Assembly: GCF_001580535.1 (NCBI RefSeq)
Contig: NZ_LHZA01000155.1
Location: forward strand, 62,001-126,000
Origin: Acetobacter cerevisiae
GTDB lineage: Bacteria > Pseudomonadota > Alphaproteobacteria > Acetobacterales > Acetobacteraceae
Reading direction: 5' to 3'
Length of the DNA stretch: 64,000 nucleotides
Position numbers and translations under genes: made by a program
In this document: positions 25,548-28,956 of the stretch, in pieces
How the letters are laid out: every line of letters begins with the position of its first letter
Numbering within the stretch: the first letter of the stretch is position 1
Notes under the pieces: model-generated
The model's input: only the letters and a program-made list of their open reading frames with translations
Told to the model about the DNA's origin: nothing
Database searches by the model: none

Positions 25548-25685
25548 TTAAAAGTGCGTAAACGTCAGGCCATACATGACGCCGGCAATCAGCACCATGA
25601 AGCCCAGCATGGCACGCAGACGCTCTTTCTGCCGGCGCTGCTTTTCCGCGACTTCCTGCGGGTTCAGAACGTTTAGATTTTCCAT
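25548..25685 (-). CDS. CoxF-like 45-residue membrane protein
   Basis: A 45-codon gene that starts on the last base of ctaB (TGATG overlap). The product begins MENLNVLNPQEVAEKQRRQK, continues with basic residues and ends in one hydrophobic helix (MLGFMVLIAGVMYGLTF). In many alphaproteobacterial cytochrome c oxidase loci the order is ctaD-ctaB-coxF-ctaG-ctaE, and the coxF product is a similarly tiny single-span protein with a basic N-terminus. Position, size and layout match, so I read it as the coxF relic. Its function is unknown even in the intact loci. In this genome ctaG and ctaE do not follow; the next gene is the unrelated, convergent one at 25224-25418. Confidence 0.7.
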   Translation of the reverse strand: MENLNVLNPQEVAEKQRRQKERLRAMLGFMVLIAGVMYGLTFTHF

Positions 25686-26644
25686 CAGCCTATCCACCCC
25701 ATCAGCATATGGTCGGCCAGCAGCCCGCAGAACAGCAGGAACAGATAGGCCAGAGAAAAGCGGAACGACAGACGCGCCGCTTTGTCACCCTTAAGACTAA
25801 TCCCGCTCTCATCCTGCGGTTCACGCAGCACGCGCACCGCGCAGGCTATAAAGCCCAGCCCCAGCACCAGAGCCGTGCCCGTATAGAGCCAGCCGCACAG
25901 ATGCAGGAAAGATGGCACCAGAGAAACCGCCAGCAACACCAGCGTATAAACAAAGATGTTCCACCGCGTATGCCGGGCACCTTTAACAACCGGCAGCATC
26001 GGAATGCCCGCCCGGCCGTAATCCTTGCAGGCATACAGAGAGAGCGACCAGAAGTGCGGCGGCGTCCAGAAGAACACGATGCCGAACATCACCACCGGCA
26101 GCACAGCCATATGGCCTGTTGCTGCGGCCCAGCCGATCATGGGCGGAAAAGCCCCGGCGGCTCCGCCAATCACGATATTCTGTGGCGTAGAGCGCTTGAG
26201 CCACATCGTGTAAATGACGGAATAGAAGAAAATCGAGAACGCCAGAATACCGGCGGCCAGTGCATTGGTGGCCATCCACATCAGGCAGACGGACAGGCAG
26301 GACAGGCCAACGCCATAGGCCAGCGCTTCCTGCGGCGGAATGCGGCCACCCGGAATAGGCCGGGTAATGGTGCGCTGCATCACGGCATCAATATCGCGGT
26401 CGTACCACATATTGATCGCCCCGGCGGCACCTGAAGCCAGACAGATGCACAGAATAGCCACAGCCGCCACAAACGGGTTCAAATGCCCCGGCGCCATAAT
26501 CATCCCGGCAGCGCCCGTAAACACCACCAGTGAAATCACGCGTGGCTTGAGAAGCTGCACCCAGTCTTTAGCCGTCGTGCCAACCCGGTCTGCCTTGAAG
26601 CGAATGCGGCCGGCCGGAACGTCCGTTGCTACTGTATCGCTCAT
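25685..26644 (-). CDS. ctaB: protoheme IX farnesyltransferase (haem O synthase)
   Basis: Haem O synthase, 319 residues, an inner-membrane UbiA-family prenyltransferase that attaches a farnesyl group to haem B. About nine membrane helices are visible. The first Asp-rich motif is NMWYDRDID (N78, D82, D86), followed by RTITRPIPGG, and the second loop contains YACKDYGRAGIPMLPVVKG. The protein is complete and no ligand looks damaged. It overlaps the decayed ctaD by ATGA and is followed by the CoxF-like gene. In acetic acid bacteria this enzyme is known to serve the ubiquinol oxidase, since their cyo operon lacks cyoE; that knowledge explains why it survives beside a dead oxidase subunit. Confidence 0.97.
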   Translation of the reverse strand: MSDTVATDVPAGRIRFKADRVGTTAKDWVQLLKPRVISLVVFTGAAGMIMAPGHLNPFVAAVAILCICLASGAAGAINMWYDRDIDAVMQRTITRPIPGGRIPPQEALAYGVGLSCLSVCLMWMATNALAAGILAFSIFFYSVIYTMWLKRSTPQNIVIGGAAGAFPPMIGWAAATGHMAVLPVVMFGIVFFWTPPHFWSLSLYACKDYGRAGIPMLPVVKGARHTRWNIFVYTLVLLAVSLVPSFLHLCGWLYTGTALVLGLGFIACAVRVLREPQDESGISLKGDKAARLSFRFSLAYLFLLFCGLLADHMLMGWIG

Positions 26645-27900
26645 GACTGCACCGTTCCTTCAGAAGAGGACGCCAGCACTGGCTGCGCCGAAGCCGCGCT
26701 GCCTTCCGTCACTTTCCGGTTCTGCATGAAGCTTATGCCCATGGTCGCCACAAAGCACAGAAGAGACGCACCCAGCAGCCCCCCGCTCCAGATCTGCGCA
26801 GCGGCAGAGAGCGGCGAAAAAGACAGTCCGGTTGCAGCCGCCATCAAGACAAACTGTAAAACAGCCAGAGAACGGGGATACCAGTATCCGCCATTTTCTC
26901 CGCGCCACAGATAGAGGCCGCAGAAGGCCGCATACACAGCACCAAGCTGAAGGGCTGAATGCAGCCCTTCACCCTGCATCAGCTGCGCCACCCACCCCGT
27001 GGAAACAACAGCCAGAAAACCAAGCCCCCACAGCATGGGAACACGCAGGGAGAGACGGCTGCGCCATGTACCTGCCATCCACAGGCCCGCCAGCAGGACG
27101 GAGGCCAGAGTGGACGCAAAAAGCACAGCGTTTTCAGGAGAGGTCAGAGTGCCGGGCTGCTGCACACTGGCAGCCAGTCCATGCGCAAAAACGCCGCGCG
27201 TCCAGATAATGACAGAGGCGGCAGTCGTCGCTGTCATGATGGCAATCACGGGTTTTTCAGAAAAACGGCTGGCCCGCGCTCCGGCCTCAAACACAAGACC
27301 AAAACCAGCCAGCAGCGTGACAAGGGTTACGGGCTCGGCAAAACCATCCAGCAGCGGCAGAATATCGCCCTGAGCACCGGAGAGCAGCTGATGCGTCATC
27401 ACGGCAGCCAGAACCGGCACTGTCAGAAGCAGCACGGCAGACGCCAGCATTTCACCCCAGACAAACGGAGAAAACGGCAGCTTTTGTTCTGTATCAGCGC
27501 GGCTATCAAAAATGGTCGCCAGCACGGTCATGACGGCACACAGCAGCCCCGCGCACCAGAGCAGAATAGCCGGGGCCTGCGCCCCATTCACCACAGCCAG
27601 AATGCCGGACACGCCCACCAGCCCAAGGCCAGCAACGTTCAACGCCGGTAAAACCATCCCCGCACGCCCAAGAGCCCGCGGCAGCCAAAGGTTACTGAAG
27701 CCGCACACCAGCGCGGGGATCACAACAAACAGAAGCATCAGGGGTGCATGGATATGTTCCAGAACAGGCCAGATGCCATGGTCGGGCATCAGACCCGCCT
27801 GACGCAGCACGGAAGCTCCGCCACCAAGCAGTCCCGCCACCGCAGCGACAAGCAGATATCCTGCTCCCACACCTGTGCCCGATGCAGCCTGCTTGTTCAT
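26641..27900 (-). CDS. ctaD: decayed cytochrome c oxidase subunit I (CtaD-derived), open frame
   Basis: A 419-residue, roughly 11- to 12-helix membrane protein that aligns by eye with CtaD (about 550 residues). Anchors are HAPLMLLFVVIPALVCGFSN (helix II), PFVWGEMLASAVLLLTVPVL (helix V), RVPMLWGLGFL and LGAVYAAFCGLYLW (helix X). Catalytic residues (Paracoccus numbering) are changed: H276 to E189, E278 to V191, Y280 to L193, H325/H326 to R235/G236, K354 to L270 and H411 to G312. The two low-spin haem ligands remain, H94 as H51 and H413 as H314. The loop with the haem-propionate Arg pair is deleted. It therefore cannot reduce oxygen. Starts at 27975 and 27942 are possible, but 27900 has GGAAGAAG upstream. 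Acetobacter has been reported to carry a non-functional ctaD next to ctaB. Confidence 0.85.
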   Translation of the reverse strand: MNKQAASGTGVGAGYLLVAAVAGLLGGGASVLRQAGLMPDHGIWPVLEHIHAPLMLLFVVIPALVCGFSNLWLPRALGRAGMVLPALNVAGLGLVGVSGILAVVNGAQAPAILLWCAGLLCAVMTVLATIFDSRADTEQKLPFSPFVWGEMLASAVLLLTVPVLAAVMTHQLLSGAQGDILPLLDGFAEPVTLVTLLAGFGLVFEAGARASRFSEKPVIAIMTATTAASVIIWTRGVFAHGLAASVQQPGTLTSPENAVLFASTLASVLLAGLWMAGTWRSRLSLRVPMLWGLGFLAVVSTGWVAQLMQGEGLHSALQLGAVYAAFCGLYLWRGENGGYWYPRSLAVLQFVLMAAATGLSFSPLSAAAQIWSGGLLGASLLCFVATMGISFMQNRKVTEGSAASAQPVLASSSEGTVQS

Positions 27901-28113: not shown

Positions 28114-28803
28114 TTACGTCCGGTCGAGCGTCACAAGTGTAAACAGACCCAGCGGCGGTACAGGCTGAATGCGTGCACGGGCCAGATCTTCCGGCGGCAG
28201 CAGAGATTCCATGGCGAAATCAGGATGCCAGCCCAGAGAGCGGGACGCCCGCGCCATGCCACGTTCCACAGCACCGCGAACACCCGTCGGCGCCAGAAAG
28301 TGGTTTACGAAGAGAATATGGCCACCGGGGCGCACAACGCGCTTGAGTTCACGCAGCAATTTGCGCGGATGCGGCACCACAGAGGCCACGAACATGGCCA
28401 CCGCGATATCAAAAGAGGCATCAGCAAAGCTGGTCTCTTCCGCATCCATTTCCAGCAGACCTTCAACGTTGGTCAGATGCTCTCTCTGCACGCGTTCACG
28501 CGCACGAGCCAGCATGTCACCAGACAGGTCAATACCAGTAATCTGTTTGTCCTGAGTGTAACAGGGCAACGCAAGCCCCGTCCCCACGCCGACTTCCAGC
28601 ACTTTGGTGCCAGAGAGCGCGTTGACAGCTTCAACCGCACGCCGGCGGCCAACGCCTGAAATACCGCCAAAGACAGTATCATAGCAGGCGGCCCACCGAC
28701 GGTAAGCAACTTTTACAGCCTCTGCATCCAGCGCCGAGCGTGAAGGAGGAGGCACCGGATCTTCACCCTGACCGGGCGGGCATTCGTGGAGAACGTCACT
28801 CAT
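28114..28803 (-). CDS. pmtA: SAM-dependent methyltransferase, probable phosphatidylethanolamine N-methyltransferase
   Basis: A 229-residue class I methyltransferase. The motif VLEVGVGTGLALPCY (motif I) binds SAM, ITGIDLSGDMLARAR is motif II, and FDIAVAMFVASVVPHPRKLL is motif IV. The N-terminal AYRRWAACYDTVFGG is characteristic of Rhodobacter-type PmtA, which methylates phosphatidylethanolamine three times to phosphatidylcholine at the membrane. Acetobacter is known to make phosphatidylcholine through such an enzyme. I choose the ATG at 28803 over a GTG at 28845. It precedes the decayed ctaD on the same strand with a gap of 213 bases, and a small plus-strand gene diverges from it. Confidence 0.78.
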   Translation of the reverse strand: MSDVLHECPPGQGEDPVPPPSRSALDAEAVKVAYRRWAACYDTVFGGISGVGRRRAVEAVNALSGTKVLEVGVGTGLALPCYTQDKQITGIDLSGDMLARARERVQREHLTNVEGLLEMDAEETSFADASFDIAVAMFVASVVPHPRKLLRELKRVVRPGGHILFVNHFLAPTGVRGAVERGMARASRSLGWHPDFAMESLLPPEDLARARIQPVPPLGLFTLVTLDRT

Positions 28804-28956
28804 GTTCTCTCTCTGCCTGCTTGCTGTAATTTCTTCAAGAGCCACAACGCATCTTCCCTGTATTAAATAACGCCCGCCATAAAAGCGCCCTTGTCTTCGG
28901 CCCCATTGTGCCCTTACCTTCCGCTCCGAAAGAACGGGTTGAAAAGAAAAACTGCC

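Follow-up and report, generated by a model that had tools for sequence, protein, structure and literature searches.

A ctaD-derived gene of Acetobacter cerevisiae, which has lost the oxygen-reducing site of cytochrome c oxidase subunit I, is kept under purifying selection directly upstream of the haem O synthase gene ctaB, and its product retains, throughout the homologues read, the two histidines that lie at the low-spin haem positions of CtaD. The gene, referred to here as the dead ctaD, is found in a 64,000-nucleotide stretch of contig NZ_LHZA01000155.1 (positions 62,001 to 126,000), hereafter the window. Judged from its sequence, the gene is far more likely to encode a retained protein with a single haem site than to be eroding; this had been proposed in the first-pass annotation of the window, and both the invariance of the two histidines (H51 and H314) and the low dN/dS values support it. 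The best explanation as a whole would be a bis-histidine haem protein that handles haem for CtaB, to which we assign a probability of around 0.5. The gene itself was already known; the apparent novelty is that the protein is conserved around a single untouched haem site, occurs over around 20 genera, and is joined to ctaB and seemingly not tied to haem A. It would be an example of a dead enzyme kept for one of its cofactors.

The frame is open over 419 codons with no internal stop (Table 1). The annotation had described it as coupled through an ATGA to an intact haem O synthase, and the open frame, the overlap and the NCBIfam match of the downstream protein (335.7 bits) bear this out. The closest named homologue of the window protein is from Acetobacter malorum LMG 1746 (98% identity), and phmmer searches against solved structures matched it to the CtaD of Paracoccus (1ar1_A, E 1.3e-16) as well as that of Rhodobacter (around 1e-16). 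By fold it is a member of the COX1 superfamily, with PF00115 (COX1) at 50.5 bits against the Pfam cut-off of 34.8, no other Pfam domain, and 12 helices in the structural model. It does not belong among functional A1-type CtaD proteins, as it lacks the active-site residues and scores 50.1 bits on the CtaD equivalog TIGR02891, far below the 670.75 required.

Table 1. Features of the dead ctaD locus, in window coordinates.
Feature	Position	Strand	Basis or remark
Dead CtaD homologue, 419 aa, 12 predicted membrane helices	26641..27900	(-)	Proposed single-haem partner of CtaB
ctaB, haem O synthase	25685..26644	(-)	NCBIfam PRK04375, 335.7 bits, cut-off 246
ATGA overlap of ctaB start and dead ctaD stop	26641..26644	(-)	NTGA junction in 72/81 dead loci
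Methyltransferase gene, conserved upstream neighbour	28114..28845	(-)	Pfam Methyltransf_11; beside dead ctaD in 24/24 loci tested
H51 codon = CtaD H94, low-spin haem axial ligand	27748..27750	(-)	His in 105/105 homologues; phmmer
H314 codon = CtaD H413, low-spin haem axial ligand	26959..26961	(-)	His in 104/104 homologues reaching the position; phmmer
W148 codon, helix V, invariant	27457..27459	(-)	W in 105/105
W233 codon = CtaD W323, invariant; adjacent CuB ligands H325/H326 lost in window protein	27202..27204	(-)	W in 105/105
W115 codon, Trp gained in dead family	27556..27558	(-)	W in 100/105 dead; A, S or G in 14/14 intact CtaDs

Cofactor ligands are numbered after Paracoccus CtaD, in which H94 and H413 are the ligands of the low-spin haem, H276, H325 and H326 those of CuB, H411 that of haem a3, Y280 the cross-linked tyrosine, K354 a residue of the K channel, R54 the arginine anchoring the formyl group, and R473 and R474 the haem-propionate pair. 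Alignment of this protein with the window protein by phmmer placed H94 opposite H51 and H413 opposite H314, and the same placement was obtained from the family alignments and from a separate 24-row alignment, so that the hand alignment reported in the annotation holds for both histidines. The replacements it had claimed at the active site were likewise recovered in the family alignment, namely H276 by E189, E278 by V191, Y280 by L193, H325 by R235, H326 by G236, K354 by L270 and H411 by G312. The last of these comes from the family alignment only, since H411 faces a 15-residue deletion in the phmmer alignment; the glycine opposite it is a matter of gap placement, and the haem a3 ligand is gone either way.

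The same losses extend through the dead family, with H276, Y280 and K354 kept in none of the 86 rows, H326 in one and H411 in two. The CuB ligand H325 is kept in 36 rows, but a remnant CuB site was rejected given the near absence of its two partners. Other CtaD residues survive in part (E278 in 33 of the 86 rows, D124 in 21, N131 in 45 and R54 in 12). R473 and R474 are each kept in 0/86 rows, as is the W164-like tryptophan, which was lost together with its loop, as were the propionate arginines; a haem, if bound, would thus be held differently than in CtaD. The dead protein resembles CtaD, the A1-type aa3 subunit I, in its fold, its 12 helices, its low-spin histidine pair and its place upstream of ctaB, and differs from it in lacking the CuB site, the haem a3 ligand, the cross-linked tyrosine, the K channel and the propionate arginine pair, and in being around 120 residues shorter.

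Conservation was assessed across 397 Acetobacteraceae genomes, 368 of which gave matches, whole CtaDs included. Among the matches listed, 85 genomes held a dead-type match, judged by coverage: 84 of these matches start before residue 13 or span nearly the whole length, and that of G037 covers residues 50-358. Partial frames matching only residues ~118-364 were classed as whole CtaD by coverage, and of the intact proteins only controls were read. All 85 dead-type genomes were read, together with 22 named Acetobacter loci and five more divergent copies beside ctaB, and 105 distinct sequences were left after dropping identical ORFs, one broken copy (L054) and two loci (L003 and L004) that are copies of the window.

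H51 is histidine in all 105 of these sequences and H314 in all 104 that have a letter at the position (the contig of L145 ends before it), over around 20 genera. The only other invariant columns are W148 and W233, with P190 proline in 104 of 105, and the separate 24-row alignment returned the invariant set H51, W148, P190, W233 and H314. Mean pairwise identity is 26.5% among 33 representatives at <60% identity (chosen from the 81 rows of an earlier set), and the positions flanking H51 and H314 are variable across the family; the annotation had asked whether the two histidines are more conserved than their neighbours, and they are. Of 240 columns that are invariant in five intact CtaDs and occupied in >=90% of the 86 dead sequences, four are invariant in the dead sequences and H51 and H314 are two of the four, for which the chance would be 2e-4 if columns were independent, which is not quite true. 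Both histidines are encoded by CAT and CAC, with all four combinations occurring among the 86 rows, so silent changes have built up while the amino acid stayed unchanged. The dead family has also gained W115, which is tryptophan in 81 of 86 rows in the earlier set and in all but five of the full set, the exceptions being four members of genus g56 (L063, L070, L077 and L087) and L072. The two axial histidines that a bis-histidine membrane protein would need are thus conserved at the low-spin haem positions of CtaD.

With this pattern of ligands, the dead CtaD very probably binds haem. We propose that, in an ancestral A1-type cytochrome c oxidase operon, the gene would have encoded subunit I, and that oxygen reduction would have been lost with CuB, haem a3 and the K channel, the protein being kept as a helical-bundle haem protein. 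H51 in helix II and H314 at the start of helix X would be the ligands of a single haem, more likely b or O than A. The protein would sit beside CtaB, either presenting haem b to it or receiving haem O from it; haem O could then be passed on to CtaA or to the bo3/ba3 quinol oxidase, and CtaB would be stabilised at the same time. That haem handling for CtaB is the main role of the protein is, in our estimate, an even chance. A more specific version remains tentative: a lost oxidase subunit I might have been turned once, in the acetous Acetobacteraceae, into a dedicated haem chaperone of haem O synthase, shuttling haem b or O at the old low-spin site. No sequence feature separates a chaperone from a sensor or a carrier.

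A deranged COX1-like protein beside ctaB was reportedly described in Acetobacter by Matsutani et al. in 2014, a study known to us through later papers. In the available text of Degli Esposti et al. 2023 (PMC10715153) the protein is described as being without all metal-binding residues, and a structural role in stabilising CtaB is suggested. In the accessible part of PMC5158111 the locus tags of ctaB and ctaD are neighbours, and in that of PMC6915089 ctaB and ctaA are regarded as what is left, still functional, of an oxidase cluster. The gene studied here is the same as that published: CtaD-derived, beside ctaB, not expected to have oxidase activity and, in the available text, given a suggested role with CtaB. 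Unlike that description, as far as its available text goes, the low-spin ligands are invariant, the gene occurs in around 20 genera, and it persists in genomes without CtaA. By alignment, the published absence of metal-binding residues, as worded in the available text, does not hold for the low-spin haem ligands, and the printed view of a protein without cofactor ligands would be corrected in this respect. No report of the invariant histidines was found among the titles, abstracts and passages, mostly of open-access papers, that the literature search covered. The annotation had likewise placed the dead ctaD beside ctaB in Acetobacter; the locus is indeed the same there, but the genus is too narrow a range.

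The tie to ctaB is constant. At all 108 dead-type loci (several places counted twice) and all five intact loci ctaB is the next gene downstream, on the same strand, and it directly follows the dead gene in five further loci; at the nine of 81 dead-locus junctions without NTGA, ctaB starts within 16 bases. The methyltransferase gene and ctaB flank the dead gene in 24 of 24 loci, a chosen part of the set, in which GshB, Tim44-like and PmbA-like genes are nearby in 23 loci each and an M16 peptidase gene in 17, several of the stretches not reaching far enough to include it. The Tim44-like, PmbA-like and M16 peptidase genes are on the opposite strand to the dead ctaD. From this neighbourhood a role with CtaB is favoured.

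The converse is less strict. Twenty of the listed genomes gave no match to the window protein; ten of these have no ctaB over the cut-off (two of them <90% complete), and no dead-type match was found in these ten, family profile included; this co-loss could be plain deletion of neighbours. G210, an Acetobacter with a reduced genome of 1.7 Mb, has no ctaB over the cut-off, no CtaA and no CtaD/CyoB-type match. In G001 (L122) the gene order is the same and ctaB and the neighbours are kept with the dead ctaD missing, a natural loss that offers a ready comparison for the role of the dead CtaD. The methyltransferase gene and ctaB also occur without the dead gene in G053, ctaB is present without it alongside in G077 and G050, and G179 has ctaB and no dead-type match in the genome; in G007 and G031 the contig ends at ctaB, and pieces of a whole CtaD adjoin ctaB in G064 and G110. 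A strict dependence of CtaB on the dead CtaD was therefore rejected, as several genomes keep ctaB alone and CtaB does not require the dead CtaD everywhere.

These genomes also weigh on the suggestion that the protein is a structural scaffold, which only stabilises CtaB in the membrane, with haem, if present, a folding aid. This is close to the CtaB-stabilising role suggested in the available text of PMC10715153, and it agrees with the constant coupling to ctaB and with the loss of the catalytic residues. However, that text has the protein without metal-binding residues, yet both low-spin ligands are invariant; a scaffold would have no need for two histidines to be among its most strictly kept positions, and ctaB occurs without the dead ctaD in several genomes. 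We consider a pure scaffold unlikely.

AlphaFold2, run with 22 Acetobacter sequences, returned 12 long helices with a pTM of 0.77 and a mean pLDDT of 73.4 in the best of five models (the other four had means from 70.9 to 52.6); residues 310-314 have pLDDT <50, and H314 is thus in a low-confidence stretch just before helix X. Foldseek matched the model to 40 PDB entries at E <=0.001, each of them a cytochrome oxidase or a respiratory complex containing one, the best being 3dtu_C with a TM of 0.70. One kept haem site beside a haem-modifying enzyme would suit a haem sensor or regulator, whose bis-histidine occupancy reports the haem supply to CtaB or its turnover, but no sensory or effector domain was found and Pfam gives the oxidase fold alone, which leaves such a role improbable.

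As to which haem might be bound, CtaA (haem A synthase) is present in 30 of 51 dead-ctaD genomes and absent from 21, over 12 of 20 genera. Haem b or O is therefore likelier as the cofactor, and haem A disfavoured, given these 21 genomes and the survival of R54 in only 12 of 86 rows. All 51 genomes have a match of the size of the CyoB oxidase subunit I at 546-590 bits (that of G307 is cut, at 530 bits), which we infer from size to be CyoB. CyoB/CyaA, subunit I of the bo3/ba3 quinol oxidases, shares a superfamily with the dead protein, and the copy in the window genome (L001) has its active-site motifs in place by eye, whereas the dead protein does not. The low-spin site of CyoB/CyaA can hold haem b, and a CyoB-type oxidase is a likely user of haem O. 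The window's genome also encodes, on contig C6 (L002 652-2994 (+)), a PF00115 protein of 780 aa that we take to resemble a quinol-dependent nitric oxide reductase. Ten of the 51 carriers (G251, G071, G132, G215, G042, G340, G337, G073, G189 and G388) have a separate whole CtaD-like protein, which scores 643-682 bits; the dead gene thus persists in genomes with a possible further oxidase. This second protein is perhaps the A2-type oxidase mentioned in the available text of PMC10715153.

The distribution of CtaA bears equally on the idea of an electron carrier, a membrane cytochrome with a single low-spin haem that passes electrons, for example, to CtaA or a quinol pathway. Such a carrier would keep its ligands invariant among homologues, as seen here, and in CtaD the bis-histidine low-spin haem is the electron-transfer haem; however, CtaA is absent from those 21 carriers, there is no redox partner among the conserved neighbours (ctaB, methyltransferase, GshB, Tim44-like, PmbA-like and M16 peptidase genes), and the CtaB reaction needs no electrons. 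We rate it marginally below the sensor, as a poor candidate.

Haem handling for CtaB, the reading we prefer, invites comparison with Surf1, although we know of no homology between the two proteins. In the available part of a review (PMC9145763), Surf1 is a membrane protein that binds haem, probably via histidine, and is thought to aid insertion of the haem into the oxidase. The haem bound by Surf1 is haem A, whereas the dead CtaD is also found in genomes that lack CtaA and has its gene linked to ctaB. How haem A enters oxidase subunit I is not known, according to the same part of that review. A simple test system for haem insertion would be provided by a natural subunit I that has a single haem site left and is locked to CtaB.

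The dead ctaD is under purifying selection. Its tree-wide omega is 0.070 for 19 Acetobacter sequences (401 codons; iqtree), a rough value as branch lengths are long, and that of ctaB is 0.014 (200 codons), so the dead ctaD evolves faster than its neighbour. Comparing the window with six relatives (80-98% identity) gave pairwise NG86 dN/dS values of 0.058-0.119; against A. tropicalis and A. senegalensis (62-64% identity) the values were 0.215 and 0.277. Other pairs gave 0.123 (L035 vs L036), 0.146 (L035 vs L037) and 0.077 (L039 vs L040), and YN00 values reached 0.286, such that dN/dS was well below 1 in every pair computed. The frames read whole except for L054, an A. papayae draft, in which the gene is split over three frames, through either a genuine break or an assembly error, with both histidine motifs readable. 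Relaxed selection and broken frames, the marks of a pseudogene that the annotation had wished to see checked, were thus not found among the loci read beyond this single draft copy. An eroding gene that survives solely because ctaB translation depends on its 3' end, for which speak the overlap in 72 of 81 loci (which could protect the reading frame), the broken L054, the gene missing in G001 and the higher omega than ctaB, is very improbable and, at the amino-acid level, is refuted by the invariance of H51 and H314, by dN/dS far below 1 in close pairs, by whole frames over around 20 genera with one broken copy and by consistent placement, and coupling alone would not fix H51, around 370 codons before the overlap.

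Spread of the dead family outside the Acetobacteraceae was not supported among the matches listed from 241 genomes of the class. At 346-386 bits, the three dead copies among them top all other listed matches (<=309 bits), and the other frames listed are at least 486 aa, as for whole or edge-cut CtaD; as the list reaches to ~253 bits, an odd copy scoring lower could have escaped it. According to the available text of PMC10715153, the distribution of the A1-type subtype b operon stops at the acetous clade. In a 78-row tree, from which 15 near-copies had been dropped for this purpose only, a 100/100 branch sets the seven intact CtaDs apart from all other rows; the dead family therefore fits a single loss, and more than one origin is not needed. 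Rooted on the intact CtaDs, among which the root was assumed to lie, g71 and g56 branch first, with many long branches and the inner order unsure. The locus is taken as a probable remnant of an ancestral oxidase operon. The same methyltransferase gene is found beyond the CtaD-ctaB pair in two of the five intact loci (L092 and L130), and was not found in the stretch covered at the other three; the gene order, with methyltransferase and ctaB as flanks, agrees with a single-loss origin.
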